A stretch of 64,000 bases of DNA from Acidobacteriota bacterium (GTDB lineage: Bacteria > Acidobacteriota > Terriglobia > Bryobacterales > Bryobacteraceae). Position numbers and translations under genes: made by a program. Shown here piece after piece: positions 53,481 to 64,000 of this stretch; position 1 is the first letter of the stretch, and each line of letters begins with the position of its first letter. The stretch is taken from contig JAFKEE010000039.1 in NCBI GenBank assembly GCA_017307505.1, forward strand, positions 62,001-126,000, written 5' to 3'. A model generated the notes under the pieces. It was not told the DNA's origin. It worked only from the letters and a program-made list of their open reading frames with translations, and did no database searches.

Positions 53481-54278
53481 CTACGCCATCCTGCGCGCCG
53501 TTCCAATCTGCCGGCGCACATCGTCCAGAATGTCGCCTTCCTTCTCGTACTCCAAGGCCACCAACCCCTTGAACCTGACCTTGTGCAGTTCCTTCATCAC
53601 CTCCGGAATCCGGCACAACCCCTGGCCCAGCGGCACATTCACTTCCCCGCCCCGCGCCTGAATATCCTTCAGGTGCACCAGCTTCAACCGCGAACCCAGC
53701 TTCCGCACCGCATCCACCGTGTCGTAACCGCACGACACAATATGGCCGACATCCAGCGTGCAGCCCACAGTCTCTGACAGGCCATCCAGCGCCTTCAGAA
53801 TGTCCTCCGGACTCTCGTAGTCGAACTTGCGGTTCTTAAAGTAGTGGTTGTGGATGCCGAAGGTCAGGCCCTCGGCACTCATGCGCTCATCCACGTACTT
53901 AAGCACGGTCCCGGTCGGGTCGCCCGTGATATGGGAACACCCCAGGATCCGCGCGAAGCGGATCGCTCCATCCAGATCCGCTTTGTCTTTGATCGTCGGT
54001 GCGTAGTAGGACACACAGCGGATCCCGGCCGCGTCAATCTTGCTGCGGAAACTCGCGAACAGGCCGGCCGGCGGCTTGTTGAAGTTCATGAACTCGCCGC
54101 GAGACATCTCGATCTCGGTCACCTTCAGGGCGCGCAACTGCTCGATCATCGCGTCTGTCGAAATGGCGTGATACGTGTACGCGCCGATCCCAATCCTCAG
54201 TCGCCGCTCCGCCATCAGTGGAACGGAGACACCCCCTGCGCAAAGGGCTCTGGCAAAGTCGCGCCGCGAGTAGCTCAT
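53481..54278 (-). CDS. Sugar phosphate isomerase/epimerase-type TIM-barrel protein with Tat leader
   Basis: 265 residues. Tat-type leader MSYSRRDFARALCAGG. AP endonuclease 2-like barrel (PF01261): metal ligands expected in FGIHNHYF, GCTLDVGHIVSCG and LVALEYEKEGD are present. Family members epimerise or isomerise free sugars. The open frame extends to 54404, but ATG 54278 follows AGGA in the 14-base gap after the ThuA gene, so the two form an operon. Export together with ThuA suggests periplasmic sugar work. Confidence 0.88.
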   Translation of the reverse strand: MSYSRRDFARALCAGGVSVPLMAERRLRIGIGAYTYHAISTDAMIEQLRALKVTEIEMSRGEFMNFNKPPAGLFASFRSKIDAAGIRCVSYYAPTIKDKADLDGAIRFARILGCSHITGDPTGTVLKYVDERMSAEGLTFGIHNHYFKNRKFDYESPEDILKALDGLSETVGCTLDVGHIVSCGYDTVDAVRKLGSRLKLVHLKDIQARGGEVNVPLGQGLCRIPEVMKELHKVRFKGLVALEYEKEGDILDDVRRQIGTARRMA

Positions 54279-54292
54279 GCCCGGGAATCCTG

Positions 54293-55183
54293 CTACTTTC
54301 TGGAGGCCGCCGGCAGCGGCCGCGGCGCTGTTTCGGCGTCCACCTGCCTCGTCGCCCACCGGATCGCCCCGATGATCATCGCCTGCATATCCGGCCTGTC
54401 CCAATTCGCCGGTACGTGGCCCAACGTTGTATAGAACACGCGGCCCTGCCCATAGTTCTTCACCCAGCTCACCGCGAAGTCGCGATCCGCCCGTTTCACC
54501 TTCTTGTTGGAGAGGTCCACCTTCGACGCATCCAGCCGCATCAACACCCGGGTGTTCTCGCGCGAGTAGTTCTTCATCTGGTAGATCTCATCCGTCATCT
54601 GGAACGCCGCGGGCCACTTCTGCATCCCGGGGAAATCCGGATCCTCGACAACGATCGGCGCGTCGAAGGTGCCCCATGGATGCTCGTCGAAGTATCCGCC
54701 CAGCATCTCTCCGTACGCCGGCCACTGCACAAAGGTGATGGCCGCGCTATGGATGCCCAGAAACCCCTTCCCGTCTTCCTGCACGAAAGAGAGCAGGTCC
54801 GCCTTCTGTTGCTCGTCCATCTGAAGCGTCCCGCCCGTATAGAAAATCACCGCGTCAAAATCGTTCAGGTTCTTCGCGTTGTACTCGAGCTTCTTCTTCG
54901 TCAGCGGTTCCGTATCGGTTCTCAGATGAGTGGCCCACAATCCGGTCTCCCGGCCCAACCGCTCCACCGTCGCCATCGCGTGCGAAATGGCCTCATGCCG
55001 GTAGCCCTTCTCATCGCCGATGAACAACACCTGCTTCAGCCGTTTCACAGGCACAGCCCCACCGGCCTGTGTCTGGCTGAAACCGGGCCCGCCCGCCAGC
55101 AACCCCAGGCAGACGGCGACCAGGGCCTGGGCGCTCATCACCTCCGCGGCAAGGCGGCTAAGACGGTGCAATGAACTGTGCAT
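54293..55183 (-). CDS. ThuA-like (trehalose utilisation) exported protein
   Basis: 296 residues. Signal peptide (MSAQALVAVCLGLLAGGPGFSQ), then the ThuA class I glutamine amidotransferase-like domain: VLFIGDEKGYRHEAISHAM, FDAVIFYTGG, GKGFLGIHSAAITF, YGEMLGGYFDEHPWGTF, VSWVKNYGQGRVFYTTLGH. ThuA proteins are linked to sugar (trehalose-like) oxidation, and in this phylum they accompany isomerase-like and Gfo/Idh proteins. ATG 55183 is preferred over TTG 55219. Leads the operon with the TIM-barrel gene. Confidence 0.9.
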   Translation of the reverse strand: MHSSLHRLSRLAAEVMSAQALVAVCLGLLAGGPGFSQTQAGGAVPVKRLKQVLFIGDEKGYRHEAISHAMATVERLGRETGLWATHLRTDTEPLTKKKLEYNAKNLNDFDAVIFYTGGTLQMDEQQKADLLSFVQEDGKGFLGIHSAAITFVQWPAYGEMLGGYFDEHPWGTFDAPIVVEDPDFPGMQKWPAAFQMTDEIYQMKNYSRENTRVLMRLDASKVDLSNKKVKRADRDFAVSWVKNYGQGRVFYTTLGHVPANWDRPDMQAMIIGAIRWATRQVDAETAPRPLPAASRK

Positions 55184-55260
55184 GCAGGGCGGCTTCCTTC
55201 GCTCCGGGTAACTGATCAACTCCTCAGTGTATTGCAGTGCGTGAAAACCCGCGTTGATGC

Positions 55261-55325: not shown

Positions 55326-57140
55326 TCAGGCATCCATGCCGGCGCGATGATTCCCAACCGCCTCTGACGTGCGCAACGCGCGGCTGTAGACCCGCAGCTT
55401 GCGAATCTCGCCGAAGATCTTCGGACCCACCTTTGCCTGGGCCTCGCCGTTCACGTCACCAAGCTCGGGAGCAAACCGCCCCCAGCCGTAGTCCCGCACC
55501 GCTCCGCCGTCATTCAGGATCCCGTCAATCACCACGGAGAGGATCTTCGGCCCGCCGTCGACGATAAACACGACATGCTGCCACACCCCGGTCCGCATCG
55601 TACCCGCATGCGTTCCGGGATCACTGTCCCACTGGGCGCGAGTCCGCCCGTCATTCAGCGTCAGCGCCAGCGTGAACCGGTCGCTGGTCCGCACCGACAC
55701 GCCCTGCCCGGCCGGCGTCACCGTGTCGAACAGCACCTGCCCCTCCGACAACTCGCTCAGCTTGACCCAAAACTCCAACGAGAAGCCGCCGCCGGACGAA
55801 AGCTCCGCGAGTTTGGGCAGCGCCACGGTCGCCGTCCCGCCCGCCACCGCCGCCACCAGGCCCGCTTTCGCCACCGTCTTGTTGCCGAGCTGATTCCACA
55901 CACCATCCAACAGCGTCTGGTCGATGGGATGGACCCGAGCGTAGGTCTTCACCGTCTCGGTGATGTAGTAACGGCCCTTGTCCTCCACGAAATCCGGGTA
56001 GCTGATGCGTGTATCCGGGTTGTCGTCGTACAGCAGGATCTCCGGCTGGCTCCAGTGAATGTACCCGTTCTTCTCCACGCCGCCGCTGATCCAGCCCGGA
56101 TTCCGGCCCGTGTAATACGGCCACTTCTGAGCATGGACGGCCTCGCCGGCATGATTGTGGTACCACAGCAGGAACTTCCCGTTGCTGAACTTGCGCACGA
56201 AGTTCGCCGCCCTCGGATGCTTGATCGGCCGGCCGCCTGGTGTATACGTCGCATACCCCGGCGGAGTCCACGTCTTCCCGCCGTTCCTGCTGTACGCCGC
56301 GCAGTTGTAGCCATCGATGCTGCGGTACGTGCAATACAGGCTGCCGTCGCTCAACTCCACCAGATTCGCTTCGTCCGAAACCGGATTCTTCGGCGCCCGC
56401 AGACCCTCGTCACCCTCCGGCAACAACTCCCAATGCAGCTTCGCCGGATCCTTCTCCGTGGCGATATTCGAGCTCTTCAGGAAGACACCCTGCGACGTCA
56501 CCATGCCGCCCGGATCGCCCCACTTCCCCACCTTGGCATAGCCGAAGATCATCTCTTTCTTGCTGGTCAGGATGGGCTTGCCCACCCCCCAGAAGTACAT
56601 GAGCTTCCCTTCCCAGGCATTCTCCCGGTCGATCCGCATCGGCCGCATGGGAATGAAATAACGATCCTTCGACCACGTGTGCCCGTGATCGTCCGAGTAC
56701 TTGTACGCGTACTTGCCCAGCGTATCCACGCGCCGCCCCACCTTGGGATTGTTGCTGCGCGTGTCCAGCCGCAGATTCTCCGAGTTGTAGGTATAGAAGA
56801 CGTACACCCGCCCGCCCGGAGCAATGAACGGCATCACCCACGACGCCTCCGGCCCGTCTGCCGGCTCGATGTCGATCGGCGTCGACCACGTCCGCCCCTG
56901 GTCCGTGCTGATCGTCGAAATGATGTGCTGGCCCGGCTCGCCTTCCACGCCCCGGCCCGTCGTCAGCACACAAAGCCAGTTGCCGTCACGCGTCACCACC
57001 ACGTAAGGCTGGTCGCTGTAGCCCTCCCGCGGAATCTGCCATCCGTTCTTGACGTTGCGCCAGTCCGGCTGGCCGGCTTCCGCCGCATGAACCGGCACAC
57101 CCAGAACCGCGGCCGTCGCAAAGAAGTCTCGTCTCGTCAT
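55326..57140 (-). CDS. BNR/sialidase-like enzyme with C-terminal LamG-type domain
   Basis: 604 residues. Tat-type leader MTRRDFFATAAVLG. Six-bladed sialidase-type propeller (about 25-430) with Asp-boxes STDQGRTWS, SDDHGHTWS and SRNGGKTWT, and an early arginine-like phrase GWQIPREGYSDQPYVV. A concanavalin/LamG-type beta-sandwich (about 440-600, FSLEFWVKLSELSEGQVLFD; LRVYSRALRTSEA) probably binds sugar. Secreted or periplasmic glycan hydrolase; exact linkage unknown. It is 15 bases downstream of the TonB receptor gene and ends at a strong terminator, so both belong to the operator-flanked promoter at 60609-60637. Confidence 0.88.
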   Translation of the reverse strand: MTRRDFFATAAVLGVPVHAAEAGQPDWRNVKNGWQIPREGYSDQPYVVVTRDGNWLCVLTTGRGVEGEPGQHIISTISTDQGRTWSTPIDIEPADGPEASWVMPFIAPGGRVYVFYTYNSENLRLDTRSNNPKVGRRVDTLGKYAYKYSDDHGHTWSKDRYFIPMRPMRIDRENAWEGKLMYFWGVGKPILTSKKEMIFGYAKVGKWGDPGGMVTSQGVFLKSSNIATEKDPAKLHWELLPEGDEGLRAPKNPVSDEANLVELSDGSLYCTYRSIDGYNCAAYSRNGGKTWTPPGYATYTPGGRPIKHPRAANFVRKFSNGKFLLWYHNHAGEAVHAQKWPYYTGRNPGWISGGVEKNGYIHWSQPEILLYDDNPDTRISYPDFVEDKGRYYITETVKTYARVHPIDQTLLDGVWNQLGNKTVAKAGLVAAVAGGTATVALPKLAELSSGGGFSLEFWVKLSELSEGQVLFDTVTPAGQGVSVRTSDRFTLALTLNDGRTRAQWDSDPGTHAGTMRTGVWQHVVFIVDGGPKILSVVIDGILNDGGAVRDYGWGRFAPELGDVNGEAQAKVGPKIFGEIRKLRVYSRALRTSEAVGNHRAGMDA

Positions 57141-57155: not shown

Positions 57156-60100
57156 TTAGAACAGGAACTTCAGGGCGAGTTGCAACTGCCGCGGCGAGTT
57201 CGCCTGGCTGCTGATGACACCCGCACTGGTGGAGCCGATCGACGTGCTCGGCATCCCGAACCACACCCGGTTCATGGCATTGAACGTCTCGAACCGGAAC
57301 TGCGCCTTCAGCCGTTCATAGATGGCGAACGTCTTGAACAGCGACAGATCGTAGTTTGCGATGCCCGGCCCCCGCAGGTCCGGAGCCGTCCTGGAGCTGT
57401 TGCCCAAAGTGAACGCAGCCGGCACCTGAAACGCATTCGTGTCGAAGTAGCGCAGCAGCCGGCTCTGCGTCGGACCACTCAACTCGCCGCTCTGCTGCAG
57501 CCGGATCGGACGCGAGCCCGAGATGGCGCTCATCACCAGCGGCTCCCCCTTCTGGAAGCTCGCAATCCCGTTCAACTGCCATCCGCCAAACAGCATGTCC
57601 ACGCCGCGATTCCAATGCGAACCCATCCACCGGCCGCGGCCGAAAGGAAGTTCATACACACCGCTCAACACCAGCCGGTGCGGCACGTCCTGCGAATCCA
57701 ACGACCGCTCCAGCCGCAGGTTATACGGATCCATCACGCCCGTCGTCGAGCCCACTGCCGCGTTCGAGAAGTCCGTAATGTTCTTCGACCAGGTGTAAGC
57801 CGCCAGCAGCGTATAGCCCTTGCTGAAGCGCTTCTCCACCCGGGCCTGCATCGAGTGATAGTTCGAGTTGCCGATCGAGGGGTTCACCAGATTGATCGCT
57901 CCATACTGCGGATAGGGCCGCAGCAACTGCCCGCGCTGCACGGTCGGCAGCGAGAGCGAGCTGGTCGGATCCGTGATGATTCCATAGAACGGGTTCGGCA
58001 CCAGTTGCTGATTCACAGTGCCCAGGGCATTCTGCGCCTGCGTCAGGGTATTCGGGTTGAAGTTCGTGTACGGCACATGCGTGCCCTTGTTCGCCGTATA
58101 CGCGATCTCCGCAATCAGGTTCTGCCCCAGCGAACGCTGCACCGAGAAGTTCCACTGTTGGAAGTAAGGCGTCGCTAGCGAGAGCAATCCCGATGTGTTC
58201 GACTGCCCCAGCAGCGAACGGTCCGTCAGCTGGCTGCGGGACAACGGCTGGTTGAAGCCGTTCGGAAACGGATTCGAAAGACTTGCAATCGGCGTAGTTC
58301 CATCCAGCGACGTGACGATGCTCGTGGTCGCCTGGAACCCGTCGACAAAGCCGCCTGCAGCGCCGGCCGCGTCCGTCGAGGACAGTCCGAAGAAGATGCC
58401 GTATCCACCGCGGATCACCGTGTCCTTCGTCATCTGGTACGCGAAGCCAAACCGCGGAGCCCAGTTGTTCTTATCGGCCGGGATCAACTGCCGGTTGTCC
58501 GCATCGCGAAACGCCATCGCCCCGCGCAGCCCCGGAATCGAGGGAACCTGAGCGGCAATGGGCGACACCGCGCCGACATCGAAGATGCTGATGCGGTCGA
58601 AGCGCTCCGTGCGCGGGACGTTGACTTCATACCGCAGGCCGAGGTTCAACGTCAGCTTGCGGGTCATCCGCCAGTCGTCCTGCACGAATCCGGCCCAATA
58701 CCGGCTGGCCGAAGCAATCGCCGGCTGGTTCACCAGCGAGCCGCCAGGAATCCCCAACAGCAGCGAAGCAATCCCATTGCCGGCCGTCGTACTCGCCTGA
58801 TTCGGATTCGGACCCTGCGTCCAGGCCGAACTGATCGAGAGGCTGCCCTGTGCCGAAGGATTCTGGAGCTGATTGTCGAAGTACACGCGGTAGTCGGCCC
58901 CGGCCTTCAACGTGTGCGACCCCTGAATCCGCGTCACCGTCGCCTGCAGGATGTGCGACATCTGCGAGCTATAGTTCTGGTTGCCGTTCCCCAGGCCGGA
59001 AAACCCGCTGATCGAAAACGTCGGCAGCGCGCTCACCTGCTGGTTGGCCCGGAAGTTTTCCGGGAACCCAAGCTGCGTGATGTCATATCCATCACCCCAC
59101 GCCGTGCGCGTGCCATACTGCCGCGACAGCCCGTAGTTGAAGTTCACAATTGTGGTCGGCGTCAGCGTCCAGATGTCCTGCAGCGCGGCCGACCGCCGGT
59201 GCTGCGTCAGGGAAGGATTGCCCGGATTCGCAATGTTGTTGAAGTAATTCGGCTCGCCCGTGAACGGCTCCTGTCGCGAAACCCGGCCGAAGATCTTGTG
59301 GCTCGTCCCGATGTAGTGGTCGATGCGAACGTCAAAGGTATCGTCCCGGTTCACACGCGCGGCGCCGATGTCCAGATTCGCCGTCAGCCGCCCGTTCGTC
59401 GGCAGCGGGTAGAACTTCACCAGGTTGTTGCCCACCGTGTTGATCCGGTTCGCCGGAATCACATTGCCTGGAAAGGCATCGCGCACCAGAGTCCCGCCGG
59501 ATCCGGCTCTCGTCGTGGTGGGGTCGAACACCAGCACCGGAGCGCCCGCGGCATTCACCGTCTTCGAGAAATCGCCCGCCCGCTCCAGCGCCGTCGGCAC
59601 CGTGTAGTTCGCCGACGCCACCGTGCTCTCCCGGAACGCCTCGTAGTCGAAGAAGAAGAAGGTCTTGTCCTTCCCGTTATAGAGCTTCGGCAGCACCACC
59701 GGCCCGCCAATCGCGCCGCCCGCCTGGTTCCGCCGCAGGGCGCCCAACGGGATGCCCGCCCGGTTGTTGAAGAACGTGTTGGCGTCGAAATACGAGTTGC
59801 GATGGAATTCGTAAGCCGTCCCGTGCAGCTCGTTCGTCCCGGACTTCGTCACCACACTGATCACCCCGCCATTGAAGCGGCCATACTCGGCGCTCATCGA
59901 ATTGGTCTGCACTTTGAACTCGCTCACCGCATCCACCGATGGCGTGTAGATCAGGAAGTTGAACCGGCCCTGATTCCGCGGAGCCGTGTTCGGAATCCCA
60001 TCAATCGTCACCTCACTCGTGAAGTTCGCTGCTCCGCTGATGCTCGGCACCGACCCGCCCTGGTGCTGTGCCGTGTTGTTCGGCGTCGGCAGGACTCCCG

Positions 60101-60572
60101 GAGCCAGAGTCGCCAGCGCAAACGGCTCGCGGCCATTCAGCGGCAGGTCGATAATGCGCCGGTTCTCGATCACCTGGCCCAGCGTGTTCGTCACCGCGTT
60201 CACCAGCGGCGTCGCAGCCTCCACCGTCACCTGATCGACCATCTGGCCGATCTCCAGGTGGAAGTCGATCGTCAGCCGGTCCGCCACCCGTACCGTCAGG
60301 CCGGACTGGTTGTACTTCTTGAAACCCGTCGCTTCCACCGTGATCGCATATTGGCCCGGGTCGAGAAACGGCACGACGTACTCGCCGGCCGCACTTGTCG
60401 TAAAGGTGCGCGCCGTCTTCTTGGCAATGTCCGTAACCGTGACGACGGCTCCGGGAATCACCGCATCCTGACTGTCGCGAACCGTTCCGAGGATAGTTCC
60501 AGAACTGGATTGTGCGTGGGCGATGGCCGTTGCGGCGACGAGGGCGAGCAGTAGCTGGTGAGCTTTCGACAT
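57156..60572 (-). CDS. Oar-like TonB-dependent receptor with CarboxypepD_reg domain
   Basis: 1138 residues. Signal peptide (HQLLLALVAATAIAHAQ), regulatory domain (about 25-110, ILGTVRDSQDAVIPGAVVTV), plug (about 115-240, IIDLPLNGREPFALATLAPG), then a barrel ending LQLALKFLF. ATG 60572 has AAAGGG six bases upstream. Transcribed from a TTGACA/TAAAGT promoter bounded by two copies of the 12-bp GntR-type element. Cotranscribed with the BNR/LamG enzyme: together a binding, uptake and cleavage pair for one glycan. Confidence 0.92.
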   Translation of the reverse strand: MSKAHQLLLALVAATAIAHAQSSSGTILGTVRDSQDAVIPGAVVTVTDIAKKTARTFTTSAAGEYVVPFLDPGQYAITVEATGFKKYNQSGLTVRVADRLTIDFHLEIGQMVDQVTVEAATPLVNAVTNTLGQVIENRRIIDLPLNGREPFALATLAPGVLPTPNNTAQHQGGSVPSISGAANFTSEVTIDGIPNTAPRNQGRFNFLIYTPSVDAVSEFKVQTNSMSAEYGRFNGGVISVVTKSGTNELHGTAYEFHRNSYFDANTFFNNRAGIPLGALRRNQAGGAIGGPVVLPKLYNGKDKTFFFFDYEAFRESTVASANYTVPTALERAGDFSKTVNAAGAPVLVFDPTTTRAGSGGTLVRDAFPGNVIPANRINTVGNNLVKFYPLPTNGRLTANLDIGAARVNRDDTFDVRIDHYIGTSHKIFGRVSRQEPFTGEPNYFNNIANPGNPSLTQHRRSAALQDIWTLTPTTIVNFNYGLSRQYGTRTAWGDGYDITQLGFPENFRANQQVSALPTFSISGFSGLGNGNQNYSSQMSHILQATVTRIQGSHTLKAGADYRVYFDNQLQNPSAQGSLSISSAWTQGPNPNQASTTAGNGIASLLLGIPGGSLVNQPAIASASRYWAGFVQDDWRMTRKLTLNLGLRYEVNVPRTERFDRISIFDVGAVSPIAAQVPSIPGLRGAMAFRDADNRQLIPADKNNWAPRFGFAYQMTKDTVIRGGYGIFFGLSSTDAAGAAGGFVDGFQATTSIVTSLDGTTPIASLSNPFPNGFNQPLSRSQLTDRSLLGQSNTSGLLSLATPYFQQWNFSVQRSLGQNLIAEIAYTANKGTHVPYTNFNPNTLTQAQNALGTVNQQLVPNPFYGIITDPTSSLSLPTVQRGQLLRPYPQYGAINLVNPSIGNSNYHSMQARVEKRFSKGYTLLAAYTWSKNITDFSNAAVGSTTGVMDPYNLRLERSLDSQDVPHRLVLSGVYELPFGRGRWMGSHWNRGVDMLFGGWQLNGIASFQKGEPLVMSAISGSRPIRLQQSGELSGPTQSRLLRYFDTNAFQVPAAFTLGNSSRTAPDLRGPGIANYDLSLFKTFAIYERLKAQFRFETFNAMNRVWFGMPSTSIGSTSAGVISSQANSPRQLQLALKFLF

Positions 60573-60594
60573 GGAGACCCTTTCGGATGACAAC

Positions 60595-60608
60595 TCTGAG
60601 ATATCAGA
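60595..60608. promoter_or_regulatory. Operator A (TCTGAGATATCAGA)
   Basis: Arms TCTGA and TCAGA around GATA. It lies immediately downstream of the -10 box of the TonB receptor promoter, covering the expected start point. Shares 12 bases (TGAGATATCAGA) with operator C at 62765-62776. Confidence 0.7.
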
Positions 60609-60637
60609 ACTTTATCACCGGAATTGGTGTCTGTCAA
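60609..60637 (-). promoter_or_regulatory. Sigma-70 promoter of the TonB-sialidase operon
   Basis: On the minus strand: -35 TTGACA (60632-60637, perfect), 17-base spacer, -10 TAAAGT (60609-60614, 4 of 6). It sits exactly between operators A and B, with 2 bases or fewer on each side. Confidence 0.7.
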
Positions 60638-60638
60638 T

Positions 60639-60652
60639 TGTGATATCTCAGA
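60639..60652. promoter_or_regulatory. Operator B (TGTGATATCTCAGA)
   Basis: Reverse orientation copy of operator A with one mismatch. It is 1 base upstream of the -35 box; its centre is 44 bases from that of A, about four helical turns, so both lie on one face of the DNA. Confidence 0.7.
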
Positions 60653-60657
60653 AAACA

Positions 60658-61938
60658 TCAATCGATCGACCGGGAGGCATCCACCCACACCCAACACACC
60701 GCGCCCGCCAGGTACAGCGCCCCTGTCAGGTACAACGGACCCATCCAACCGCCATAATGATCCACGCCATAAGCCAGGATGATCGGGCTCAGGAATCCGC
60801 CAATCTGGCCCGATGTGTTCATCGCCGCCGACACCATGCCCGCGTGCGGCCCCCCAATGTCCACCGCCGCGCCCCAACTCGCCCCCAGCAGGAAGTTCGA
60901 CGAAGCCGCCGCCAGCGCAATGAACGTGGCGCCCACCACCGGATTCGGCGCCATCGTTCCGGCAATCAGGAAGAACCCGGCGCAGGCCAGCGACACGCCG
61001 CCTACCACCGCCCGGCCCAGTCGCAGCCCCAGCTTCGCCGTCAGCCGGTCCGTCGTGATCCCACCAAACAGGTCCGCCAGCACGCTCAGCGTCAGGGGCA
61101 GCCCGGCAAAGATCCCCAACAGCCCGGCGGAAAATCCCCGGGACGACTCCAGGTAAGTCGGCAGCCACGTGACGTAGAAGGTGAACCCGTACGTCTGCGT
61201 GAAGTACATGGCGCACAGCGCCAACACGCTGGGATTCAACAGCAGCCGCTGCCAGCCGCCCCCTTCCAGCGAATGCCCGGCCGAGATCGCCCGGCCCGCT
61301 TCAATGTACTCGCGTTCCCCGGCACTCACAGCCTGGTGCTCATGCGGCTCGTCCCGGAACCAGTACCGCCACGCAATCGCCCAAAGGAACCCGATCGAGC
61401 CGAAGATCAGGAACAGCGTCCGCCAGTGAAAGTGGACCAGCAGCGCCGTCACCAGCAGCGGCGTCACCCCGCCCCCCAGATGGGCGCCCATAAAGAAGAT
61501 GCCCTGGGCCGTCCCTCGTTCCCGTTGCGGAAACCAGCGAGACAGCGTCCGCGCCACGTTCGGCCACGCCCCGGCCTCTCCGGCGCCGAACAGAAAGCGG
61601 GTTCCCAGCAGAGACGGGAAACTGAATACCCCAGCGGTCAGCATGGTGAACGAGGACCACCAGGTCACGATGCGCGTCAGAACCCGCCGCGTCCCCACCT
61701 TATCGCCCCACAACCCCGTTGGAATCTCAAAGATGGCGTAGGCCAGCGTAAACGCCCCAAACACGAAACTCATCTGCATCCGGCTCAGCCCGAGATCCGC
61801 GCTCATCCTCGGCGCCGTCACCGAAATACAGACCCGGTCCAGATAGGTGATGCCGGCCAGCAACACGAGCATAGCCAGCACCCGGAATCGAACCTTTGTC
61901 TGAACGCCAGAGGCCGAGGACGCCCCCAGGCCCATCAT
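60658..61938 (-). CDS. MFS transporter, anion:cation symporter (ACS, hexuronate/galactonate-like)
   Basis: 426 residues, twelve membrane helices. The first-helix phrase GITYLDRVCISVTAPRMSADLGLS and the loop GLWGDKVGTRRVL are typical of the ACS family, which takes up hexuronates, glucarate, galactonate or phthalate with protons. Overlaps the 3' end of gntR by 4 bases (ATGA, 61935-61938), so it is translated with the regulator. The likely substrate is the acidic sugar released by the secreted enzymes of this island, which is inference. Confidence 0.9.
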   Translation of the reverse strand: MMGLGASSASGVQTKVRFRVLAMLVLLAGITYLDRVCISVTAPRMSADLGLSRMQMSFVFGAFTLAYAIFEIPTGLWGDKVGTRRVLTRIVTWWSSFTMLTAGVFSFPSLLGTRFLFGAGEAGAWPNVARTLSRWFPQRERGTAQGIFFMGAHLGGGVTPLLVTALLVHFHWRTLFLIFGSIGFLWAIAWRYWFRDEPHEHQAVSAGEREYIEAGRAISAGHSLEGGGWQRLLLNPSVLALCAMYFTQTYGFTFYVTWLPTYLESSRGFSAGLLGIFAGLPLTLSVLADLFGGITTDRLTAKLGLRLGRAVVGGVSLACAGFFLIAGTMAPNPVVGATFIALAAASSNFLLGASWGAAVDIGGPHAGMVSAAMNTSGQIGGFLSPIILAYGVDHYGGWMGPLYLTGALYLAGAVCWVWVDASRSID

Positions 61939-62714
61939 TCCGCACCTTCAGGTTGAGAAGGAGTCTCCGGAGCCGCCGCGGCCTGCTGCCCCTGCCGCCG
62001 CGAACGCTTGGAAAACGTCTGCACGTGGGACTCATTCCACCCGAAGTACGGCTCCATCTGGGCCAGCACCTCTTCCATCCGGTATCGCGTGTGCCGCCGC
62101 ATGGCAGCATCCGCCTGCTCCGGCCCACCGGAGACCAGGACCTCCGCCAGTTGCGAGTGCCAGGCCGCGGGCGGCGGCTGGTTCCCCAACGCGGTATCGT
62201 ACAGCCAGTTGAAGATCAAAACCTGATTCTTTTCAACGGCCTGGCAGAGCTCATCGCAGCCCGTGCACTCTGCAATCCGCATATGGAACCGCATGTGGAA
62301 CCGGTGGATCTCAAACAGCCGGTCCCGGCCGGAATCATCCTCCGGAATCTGCAGCACATGCAGCCCGTCGAGCTGATGCGCCATCCGCAGAATCTCGTCC
62401 CGCTCCTCCGGACTCGCCTTCTCCGCGAAAATCCGCGCCGCCTGCGTCTCCAGCGCTTCCCTGAGAATGTAGTGGCCCCGGATCGAACGAGCCGTCGGGA
62501 TCCGCACCCGCGTGCCCACCCTCGGCCGGCTCTCCACCAGCCCGTCGCTCTCCAGGCGCTGCAGCGCATCCCCCACCGGAACAATGCTGACGCCCAGCTC
62601 TTCGGCCAGGACACGGCGCGAAAGCCCCGTCCCAAAACGGAGTTCCCCACGCAGGATGCGGTTGCGGATGGTCGTGTAGACCTGCTCGGTCAGGTTGCCG
62701 GCAAAGGAGTTCAT
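61935..62714 (-). CDS. GntR-family regulator with FCD domain
   Basis: 259 residues. Winged helix at about 6-75 (LTEQVYTTIRNRILRGEL; LAEELGVSIVPVGDALQRLESDGLV) and an all-helical FCD effector domain at about 80-225 with candidate metal ligands His140, His144, His186 and His208. The C-terminal tail (235-259) is Arg/Gln/Ala-rich. FCD regulators respond to carboxylates or sugar acids. ATG 62714 is chosen; the frame continues to TTG 62759. Operators C and D lie upstream of this gene and A and B upstream of the TonB operon, so it probably represses itself and both other units. Confidence 0.93.
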   Translation of the reverse strand: MNSFAGNLTEQVYTTIRNRILRGELRFGTGLSRRVLAEELGVSIVPVGDALQRLESDGLVESRPRVGTRVRIPTARSIRGHYILREALETQAARIFAEKASPEERDEILRMAHQLDGLHVLQIPEDDSGRDRLFEIHRFHMRFHMRIAECTGCDELCQAVEKNQVLIFNWLYDTALGNQPPPAAWHSQLAEVLVSGGPEQADAAMRRHTRYRMEEVLAQMEPYFGWNESHVQTFSKRSRRQGQQAAAAPETPSQPEGAE

Positions 62715-62762
62715 GGAATCACCAGGAGCTAGTTTACGCCCGATCCGCACGATGGGCAAGCT

Positions 62763-62776
62763 ATTGAGATATCAGA
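62763..62776. promoter_or_regulatory. Operator C (ATTGAGATATCAGA)
   Basis: Carries the 12-base core TGAGATATCAGA at 62765-62776, identical to operator A. Lies in the divergent region between gntR and the hydroxyacid dehydrogenase gene, on the gntR side. Confidence 0.7.
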
Positions 62777-62793
62777 AAACATGAATTCCGTGC

Positions 62794-62822
62794 TTGTCAC
62801 CAGTCAACTATTGAAGTATTCT
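62794..62822 (+). promoter_or_regulatory. Sigma-70 promoter of the hydroxyacid dehydrogenase operon
   Basis: -35 TTGTCA (62794-62799, 5 of 6), 17-base spacer, -10 TATTCT (62817-62822, 4 of 6). The -10 overlaps operator D. On the other strand TTGACT starts just inside the same region and may be the -35 for gntR, with a poor -10. Confidence 0.6.
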
Positions 62823-62831
62823 GATATCTCA
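62818..62831. promoter_or_regulatory. Operator D (ATTCTGATATCTCA)
   Basis: The exact reverse complement TCTGATATCTCA of the core in A and C, at 62820-62831. Its centre is 55 bases from that of C, about five helical turns. It overlaps the -10 box and the expected start of the plus-strand transcript. Confidence 0.7.
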
Positions 62832-62834
62832 ATT

Positions 62835-63827
62835 GTGCCGACCATCATAGTCACAGAACCCGAATTCTCCAAAGGCGCCCACATCTTCCACGCCTCCGGC
62901 CTCCCCTGCATCCCATCCCCCGCCCCGGAAGCCGACCTCTGCGCCGCCATTCGACAGCACGGCGCCCGCCACGCCATCGTCGGCATCCAGCCCTACCGCT
63001 CTTCTTTATATGAGACGCTGCAGCCCGGAGCCGTCCTCGCCCGCTTCGGAGTCGGCCACGACGGCATCGACAAAGCCCAGGCCACCCAGGCCCGCGTCCT
63101 CTGCACCAATACCCCCGGAGTCCTGAACGACTCCGTCGCCGAGCACACCATCTCCCTGCTTCTCGCCGCCGCCCGCCACACCACGAAAGTCGCCGCCTCC
63201 ATGACCCAGGGCGCCTGGGCCCCCGTCGGCGGCCGCGAACTCCGAGGCAAAACCCTCGTCCTCATCGGCTGCGGACCCATCGGCTCCGCCGTAGCCCGCA
63301 TCGCCACCGCCGCCTTTGACATGCGCGTCATCGGCGTCATCCAGCACACTCCACCACGCGAACCCGGCTACTTTACTCAACTCACGAACGACCCCGCCCA
63401 GGCTCTCCCCCAAGCCGACTTCGTCAGCCTCCACATCCCCGCCACGCCGGCCAACGCCCACTACATCAACCAGCAGCGCCTCGCCTTGCTCCCACCCGGA
63501 GCCTGGCTCATCAACACCGCCCGCGGAGCCGTCGTCGACGAAGCCGCCCTGTACGACGCGCTCGCCCACGGCGCCCTCGGCGGCGCAGCCCTCGACGTCT
63601 TCGAAACCGAGCCCTACGTCCCGGTCCATCCGGCCAAGGACCTCCGCCCTCTCCCCAACACAGTCCTGACGCCCCACATCGGCAGCAACACCGCCGATGC
63701 CAACACCCGCATGGCGCAGCATTCTCTCCGCAACGTCCTCCTGGGGGAACAGGGCGCCTACGGCCAGATGAATCTGCTCAACCCTGAAGTCCTTCCATCT
63801 CTGCCGCGCAACGGCAGCGAACACTAG
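62835..63827 (+). CDS. D-2-hydroxyacid dehydrogenase
   Basis: 330 residues. NAD(P)-dependent reduction of a 2-oxo acid. Rossmann motif GCGPIG (145-150), catalytic Arg230 in NTARGAVVDE, Glu259 in DVFETEP and His281 in TPHIGS. The frame opens at ATG 62781, but that ATG lies upstream of the promoter and inside the operator region. GTG 62835 gives the usual N-terminus MPTIIVTEPEF and lies about 6 bases after the expected transcript start, so the message may be nearly leaderless. First gene of the plus-strand arm of the GntR island. Confidence 0.88.
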   Translation: MPTIIVTEPEFSKGAHIFHASGLPCIPSPAPEADLCAAIRQHGARHAIVGIQPYRSSLYETLQPGAVLARFGVGHDGIDKAQATQARVLCTNTPGVLNDSVAEHTISLLLAAARHTTKVAASMTQGAWAPVGGRELRGKTLVLIGCGPIGSAVARIATAAFDMRVIGVIQHTPPREPGYFTQLTNDPAQALPQADFVSLHIPATPANAHYINQQRLALLPPGAWLINTARGAVVDEAALYDALAHGALGGAALDVFETEPYVPVHPAKDLRPLPNTVLTPHIGSNTADANTRMAQHSLRNVLLGEQGAYGQMNLLNPEVLPSLPRNGSEH

Positions 63828-63836
63828 GTGACCACG

Positions 63837-64000
63837 ATGCTGCCCCGCCGTTCTTTCCTGACCCTCCCCTTAGCCGCCTGCCTCCAGGGCGCCGAAGACC
63901 AGCCCTGGGCCGTCTCCCGGCCCGACCTCAAGGTCTACATTCCGGAGAAGCCCGGCGGCGCCGACAATACCAATCAGCACTTCCAGGTAGTCGCCCTGCC
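63837..64000 (+). CDS. Exported BNR/sialidase-like protein (N-terminal part, cut by window edge)
   Basis: 54 codons to the window end. Leader MLPRRSFLTLPLAACLQGA is Tat-like. The mature start, VSRPDLKVYIPEKPGG then DNTNQHFQVVAL, resembles the N-terminus of exo-sialidase-like BNR proteins (DNxHF motif), a tentative call on little sequence. AGGTG lies six bases before the ATG and only 9 bases follow the dehydrogenase stop, so the two are cotranscribed. Confidence 0.6.
   Translation, partial: MLPRRSFLTLPLAACLQGAEDQPWAVSRPDLKVYIPEKPGGADNTNQHFQVVAL

Follow-up and report, generated by a model that had tools for sequence, protein, structure and literature searches.

Four mirrored dyads around a GntR/FCD regulator gene in Bryobacteraceae: predicted operators of a non-canonical class that recurs in other phyla

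The window examined here is a 64-kb stretch of a Bryobacteraceae genome (G000:C24:62001-126000; genome G000, 9.39 Mb in 75 contigs), in which four mirrored copies of a short dyad lie in two intergenic gaps on either side of a gene for a GntR-family regulator and its transporter partner. The regulator gene, gntR (61935-62759 on the minus strand as the longest frame, with a TTG start; likely start ATG 62714), is followed by an MFS transporter gene (60658-61938, minus) whose first 4 bases lie within the end of gntR, and the two likely form one operon; the best NCBIfam model for the transporter is the D-galactonate transporter TIGR00893, at 242.6 bits, below the cut-off of 395. Further along the minus strand come a TonB-dependent outer-membrane receptor (57156-60593 as the longest frame; likely ATG 60572) and a sialidase-fold (BNR) protein with a C-terminal LamG-like domain (55326-57140). 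On the plus strand a D-2-hydroxyacid dehydrogenase gene (62781-63827 as the longest frame; GTG 62835 as its likely start) is followed by that of a second BNR_2 protein (63828-64000, running to 65144 beyond the window; locus L039). These likely starts were read from the sequence and from a four-genome alignment. Pfam agrees with the gene identities given in an earlier reading of this DNA (hereafter the original prediction), returning GntR+FCD, MFS_1, OMP_b-brl_4, BNR_2+Laminin_G_3, 2-Hacid_dh and BNR_2 for the six genes. Since the MFS and TonB-receptor genes run in the same direction, the gap near 60.6 kb is a second promoter region on one strand and not a divergon.

The 10-mer TGAGATATCA matches exactly at four places in the window (60597-60606, plus; 60641-60650, minus; 62765-62774, plus; 62822-62831, minus), against a mean of 0.04 and a largest count of 1 in 100 dinucleotide shuffles, which bears out the four mirrored copies proposed for the two gaps. 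Six exact copies occur in the whole genome, only two of them outside the window; the element is thus not frequent at unrelated loci, a possibility that had been raised as a check. When up to two mismatches are allowed there is no excess in the window (25 versus 22.5), and a genome-wide excess at one mismatch (95 versus 43 for the reversed control) was not used as evidence, as it is partly palindromic double counting.

We designate the corresponding 14-bp dyads S1 to S4. S1 (TCTGAGATATCAGA; 60595-60608, plus) is a perfect TCTGA-N4-TCAGA dyad, kept in the related genomes G202, G208 and G204; it directly follows the -10 predicted for the TonB-receptor promoter and stands 22 bases before the likely receptor ATG. 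S2 (60639-60652, minus; TGTGATATCTCAGA on the plus strand) lies one base 5' of that promoter's predicted -35. S3 (ATTGAGATATCAGA; 62763-62776, plus) is found 48 bases before the likely gntR ATG, and S4 (62820-62833, minus; TCTGATATCTCAAT on the plus strand) overlaps the predicted -10 of the dehydrogenase promoter. The dyad centres are 44 bp (S1-S2) and 57 bp (S3-S4) apart. Spacings of 44 and 55 had been given earlier, with the first reverse copy placed at 60641-60652; the reverse-orientation 12-mer of this pair is TGTGATATCTCA at 60639-60650, and the two figures mix conventions, as dyads give 44 and 57 and 12-mer midpoints 42 and 55 (the 44 arose from the site placed two bases off, the 55 is the midpoint distance). 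At 10.5 bp per turn, 44 bp corresponds to 4.2 turns and 57 bp to 5.4, so that the argument from helical phase fails for the second pair and the supposed near whole-turn spacing does not hold.

A scan for sigma-70-type promoters over 60540-62900 returned three matches (shuffle mean 0.3). The predicted TonB-receptor promoter (TTGACA-17-TAAAGT with a TG before the -10; 60609-60637, minus; 10/12 matches) spans the S2-S1 gap to within one base, and its TTGACA is invariant in four genomes. Because a 29-bp promoter and two half-operators need about 44 bp, the 44-bp spacing is accounted for, and a promoter in this gap suggests promoter occlusion rather than looping. The predicted promoter of the dehydrogenase unit (TTGTCA-17-TATTCT; 62794-62822, plus; 9/12 matches) runs with its -10 into S4, and the third match (62871 to 62844, minus) fits no recognised gene start. 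S4 ends one base before the in-frame GTG of the dehydrogenase (62835), and as this GTG is only 12 bases past the predicted -10 (window 62820-62837), the dehydrogenase mRNA may be nearly leaderless. In G204 an ATG lies shortly behind the S4-type site, at the place matching this GTG.

Orthologues of the regulator were sought in eight other genomes of the same genus. They were found in G208 and G202 (95 and 96% identity) and in G204 (80%; locus L028, JACQZS010000264.1), while G203 and G207 gave only matches below 50% identity and G205, G206 and G209 gave none. All four sites are kept in all three genomes with an orthologue of at least 80% identity, their starts being exactly 44 and 57 bp apart within the pairs, and these genomes also keep the gntR-MFS-TonB-BNR arrangement and the divergent dehydrogenase, the G204 contig ending within the dehydrogenase side. 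In the four-genome alignment 23 of 28 operator columns are invariant against 45 of 92 others (Fisher p 0.0014), and in a second comparison of the same alignment 26 of 28 against 34 of 60 (p 0.0004). The sites are therefore present at orthologous clusters, where their absence would have spoken against a shared function. This phylogenetic footprint, with the recurrence of the same kind of site beside GntR homologues described next, supports the proposal that they serve as operators, as far as sequence comparison can show.

Among named genomes, a scan with the GntR protein yielded 11 loci. The motif (A)CTGATATATCAG(T) or a near form stands upstream of gntR in the distant loci L032-L037, and with one mismatch in L038; these belong to Acidobacteria (L032 and L038), Opitutia (L033), Akkermansiaceae (L034), Limisphaerales (L035 and L037) and a contig labelled 'Bacteroidetes' (L036). 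The L036 regulator falls among the GntR proteins of Verrucomicrobiota, and the genes around it resemble theirs, a placement that reflects either gene transfer or a binning error. Within the order, 80 of 257 genomes have GntR matches. We scored about 300 bp before distinct GntR homologues against WCTGA-N4-TCAGW (10 positions), with 100 shuffle sets as the null; the homologues came from 30 loci of best order-search matches, the 11-locus scan and loci picked for linkage of GntR with BNR genes. The 300 bp were counted back from the aligned protein start (query residue 20 or earlier; start codons unmapped), and rows with less than 150 bp upstream or an alignment start after residue 60 were dropped. 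Of the 52 homologues with less than 75% identity, 25 had a match at 9 or more of the 10 positions (null mean 1.1, maximum 4) and 13 a match at all 10 (null 0.05, maximum 1); the 52 share ancestry rather than being independent, and they include four same-genus paralogues (L080, L081, L107, L166). As the scoring was fixed after sites in L028-L072 and L149-L166 had been viewed, with arms taken from S1 and W flanks from the wider set, we also give the counts without the seven distant loci L032-L038, which are 18 of 45 at 9 or more and 8 of 45 at 10. The 25 operator-bearing regions include four Verrucomicrobiota loci, and the N4 spacer varies among the homologue operators.

This scoring confirms the dyad form TGA-N4-TCA that had been proposed, while the regulon cannot be called local, as it was in the original prediction, given an operator class that recurs in other families and phyla. 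On present sequence comparisons the operator is best placed in a wider, older, non-canonical class. Among the papers listed from the open-licence PMC library none was seen to describe it, a search that would not catch motifs given solely as logos, in supplementary files or in RegPrecise; a match to CTGATATATCAG in PMC13050008 was rejected as part of a polymerase chain reaction primer.

The regulator has an N-terminal winged helix and a C-terminal FCD domain (Pfam GntR 2.8e-17, FCD 9.5e-14, both above cut-off), which places it in the FadR subfamily (FCD type) of the GntR superfamily. The best Foldseek matches of its AlphaFold2 model (predicted local distance difference test, pLDDT, 82.6) are GntR-family proteins (7u5q, VanR 6za3/6za7, TM0439 and AlkR). 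Among the named GntR regulators of NCBIfam, none of the 16 models that matched at E 0.001 reached its cut-off (phnR_burk scored highest, 58.7 versus 271.5). Operators of the FadR subfamily follow the consensus TKGT/ACMA, with GT and AC 2-3 nt apart, NanR and BioR being described as exceptions (PMC4494728). Neither the window sites nor those of the 25 of 52 homologues have such a GT...AC core; since NanR and BioR are exceptions too, its lack is no bar to membership. In Atu1419, Arg45 reads the G, and altering that G abolishes binding; an arginine at the corresponding FadR Arg45 position is reported as a typical feature and not a requirement of the domain (PMC7797058). Across 53 aligned GntR homologues (alignment A1, with the FadR correspondence aligned by eye) arginine never occupies this position (residue 59: I, L, V, A, F, T, S, Q or P; 0/53) nor that of FadR Arg49 (residue 63: G, S, A, T or M; 0/53). 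Helix 2 carries R48 in 52 of the 53 and R49 in all of them. We infer that the loss of these arginines accounts for the absence of a GT...AC core, and as an alternative code we propose SRR in helix 2 with S-x-x-P-V-x-[E/D]-A-L in helix 3. Four histidines at the places of the FCD metal ligands (H155, H159, H201, H223) are invariant in all 53, with steps of 4, 42 and 22 residues compared with 4, 44 and 22 for Ps5454 (PMC7674646).

Three described regulators invite comparison. DgoR of E. coli, a FadR-subfamily regulator responding to D-galactonate, has an FCD domain with a metal-dependent sugar-acid pocket, a precedent for the sensing proposed here, and two inverted repeats that overlap its promoter much as in the window (PMC7674646). 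The MFS carrier adds to the likeness in that its best NCBIfam match, though below cut-off, is the D-galactonate transporter. DgoR sites have GT and AC 3 nt apart (PMC4494728), whereas the window sites are without such a core, and Pfam gave no galactonate enzyme for the cluster. Atu1419/VanR of Agrobacterium fabrum shares the FCD fold and has palindromes that overlap -10 regions, one palindrome lying in the promoter region of its own gene; its operator ATGTATACAT is read by Arg45 (PMC7797058), whereas none of the 53 aligned homologues has arginine at that position. AlkR of Pseudomonas aeruginosa (GntR/VanR; structure 9isw is among the Foldseek matches) is an FCD repressor with a site over a -10, but its operator ATTGTCAGACAAT has the GT...AC core and it responds to alkanes and acyl-CoA (PMC12042122).

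Taken together, we consider it probable (roughly 0.8) that the GntR/FCD regulator whose gene lies between the four sites uses them as its operators; it would repress by occlusion and be relieved by a sugar acid. A GntR dimer would bind each 14-bp dyad (core TGA-N4-TCA, best form WCTGA-N4-TCAGW), and independent dimers would act by steric hindrance. Two dimers would bracket the TonB-receptor promoter, one immediately 5' of the -35 and the other immediately 3' of the -10; a dimer on S4 would cover the -10 and the start region at the dehydrogenase promoter; and S3, between the dehydrogenase promoter and the gntR start, would serve autoregulation. A sugar-acid-like ligand held in the four-histidine FCD metal site would release the regulator, so that the receptor, the MFS carrier, the sialidase-fold proteins and the 2-hydroxyacid dehydrogenase are made together.

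Several observations weigh against this interpretation. No gntR promoter was called in the 60540-62900 scan, and a clade paralogue at C57:352274 could bind related sites. No clear site was seen in the stretch examined for 27 of the 52 homologues, including the closest homologues beyond the genus (L047, L048 and L049; 67-71% identity); on the contigs of these three, L030 (that of L048) has a perfect site at a TonB gene and none at gntR, L029 (that of L047) a one-mismatch site about 2 kb from gntR, and L031 (that of L049) no site on 4.5 kb. On a maximum-likelihood tree of 56 GntR homologues, operator-bearing rows flank the midpoint root (12/19 and 17/37), and site presence requires 10-11 gains or losses against a shuffled mean of 18.7, so that the operator is patchily distributed.

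The most durable alternative, though an unlikely one, is that of the original prediction, in which paired sites bind cooperatively, by looping or side by side on one helix face. The 44 and 57 spacings and the mirrored orientation are exactly kept in four genomes; the tetrameric FCD protein Atu1419/VanR is reported to loop 190 bp between two palindromes (PMC7797058); and the two pairs here, 2.2 kb apart, could form a longer loop between them. Against this stand the 5.4 turns of the second pair and the sigma-70-type promoter that accounts for the 44-bp gap of the first, so that the spacing does not call for looping. Moreover, near gntR most distant loci show a single site or no site at all, and the clade can therefore do without pairing. 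Regulators with cooperative site pairs at a constant spacing are described, as are regulators with independent sites close to their own operon (PMC4494728), and spacing conserved in only four close genomes cannot choose between the two arrangements. Slightly less favoured again is that GntR acts at these sites as an activator, or in mixed roles with S2 activating and S1 repressing: S2 has an activator-like place just upstream of a predicted -35, but S4 overlaps a predicted -10 and S1 directly follows one, where a bound protein would be expected to block initiation. It is improbable that some other regulator uses the sites; related sites do occur elsewhere in the genome, yet the operator class recurs beside the clade's GntR homologues in Acidobacteriota, Verrucomicrobiota and the Bacteroidota-labelled contig while the other genes differ. 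Chance, or close-relative similarity without function, can be dismissed almost entirely, for although same-genus intergenic DNA is conserved outside the sites too (45 of 92 and 34 of 60 columns invariant), it is contradicted by their rarity, their excess conservation and the association in distant homologues.

The looser pattern WCTGANATNTCAGW with up to one mismatch gives 28 sites in G000, four of them the window operators. We inspected 14 of the other 24, picked by eye, of which eight fall within called frames and six outside; for three of these six, the matching gene in both G202 and G208 has the site too, although similar in-frame 14-mers also recur between genomes and recurrence alone is therefore weak evidence. 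The three are ATTGACATTTCAGT 12 bases before an MFS gene (G000:C56:69436, L197:5436), ATTGACATTTCAGT reversed 19 bases before a LarA-like gene (G000:C59:264200, L198:6200) and ACTGATATATCTGT 50-51 bases before a GH106 alpha-L-rhamnosidase gene (G000:C24:21314, L184:1314). The paralogue at C57:352274 is a candidate regulator of all three, and the ATTGACATTTCAGT sites are perhaps a second small regulon of it. In L066 a relative of the MFS protein linked to ATTGACATTTCAGT, with 40% identity, is encoded next to gntR; L066 and this paralogue group together on the tree, with weak support. As remote regulon members we left out C25:94128 (an exact copy about 255 bp before a TonB gene, recurring in G202), whose orthologues in G208, G206 and G203 have no site of 12/14 or better in the flanks examined, and C57:262080, where the copy falls within a long open frame; C17:478165, kept in G208, is a possible member.

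Besides the window gntR the genome encodes four other FCD regulators. The flanks of one (L103) hold TGGTACTACCA, a dyad of GT...AC type, and the half-like CTGATATATAG; upstream of another (L105, G000:C57:330126) lies TTATCGATAACAACATCGATAA, likely an operator of a different type; and the region upstream of the clade paralogue L107 reaches 7/10 against WCTGA-N4-TCAGW.

Across the order, 21 of 46 genomes that have both a GntR homologue and a BNR/LamG protein carry the two with starts within 10 kb on one contig. Among 18 linked loci examined (L149-L166, one with 16 kb separation), gntR faces TonB-BNR in 13 and BNR directly in three, and an operator scoring at least 9/10 is present in 13. In L033-L037 the genes that gntR faces include those for an MFS carrier and an enolase-superfamily dehydratase, and some of these loci also encode beta-propeller, GguC/AraD1, 3-hydroxyisobutyrate-dehydrogenase-like and aldehyde-dehydrogenase-like proteins. 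L034 has a GguC/AraD1 protein above the NCBIfam cut-off and a GH28, and its dehydratase has 3sqs, 3ssz and 3stp as best relatives in the PDB, where 3stp bears the name putative galactonate dehydratase. These gene sets point to sugar acids as a common theme of the linked loci, which does not in itself name the substrate of the window cluster.

The AlphaFold2 model of the BNR/LamG protein (pLDDT 89.9) has sialidases as its best Foldseek matches, with a TM-score of about 0.7 by target length against sialidase catalytic domains of 360 residues; among the 50 matches listed identity is 12-18%, and longer targets give TM 0.4 with a root-mean-square deviation above 12. By this predicted model the protein would have the sialidase fold; the BNR propeller is common to both, and sialidase activity is only putative. 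The protein begins MTRRDFF, which resembles a twin-arginine signal. On the G204 contig (L028) a short copy of the BNR gene is followed by a full-length one with 39% identity. The ThuA (54293-55219) and TIM-barrel (53481-54404) genes were rejected as operon members, having no match in L073 and L074, loci that covered only about 1.3 kb and 0.9 kb past the BNR gene.

More broadly, and with less confidence than for the operators themselves, we think it rather probable that an FCD GntR clade in at least two phyla has replaced arginine-to-GT recognition by another code reading ACTGA-N4-TCAGT, for general control of sugar-acid and glycan gene sets, and that one member, in the genus of the window, multiplied the operator to four promoter-framing sites. 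The clade would have lost the recognition-helix arginines that read GT...AC, with ACTGA-N4-TCAGT as the older form of its operator. For the widespread GntR regulators, operator prediction usually relies on the GT...AC rule; a clade departing both from this rule and from the residue that would explain it offers a natural test of how DNA specificity changes in the family. The motif lets regulons of the little-studied Acidobacteriota and Verrucomicrobiota with TonB receptors, sialidase-fold proteins and sugar-acid dehydratases be read from sequence, and since the ligand of the regulator should be a substrate or product of the cluster enzymes, the question of the substrate becomes testable.

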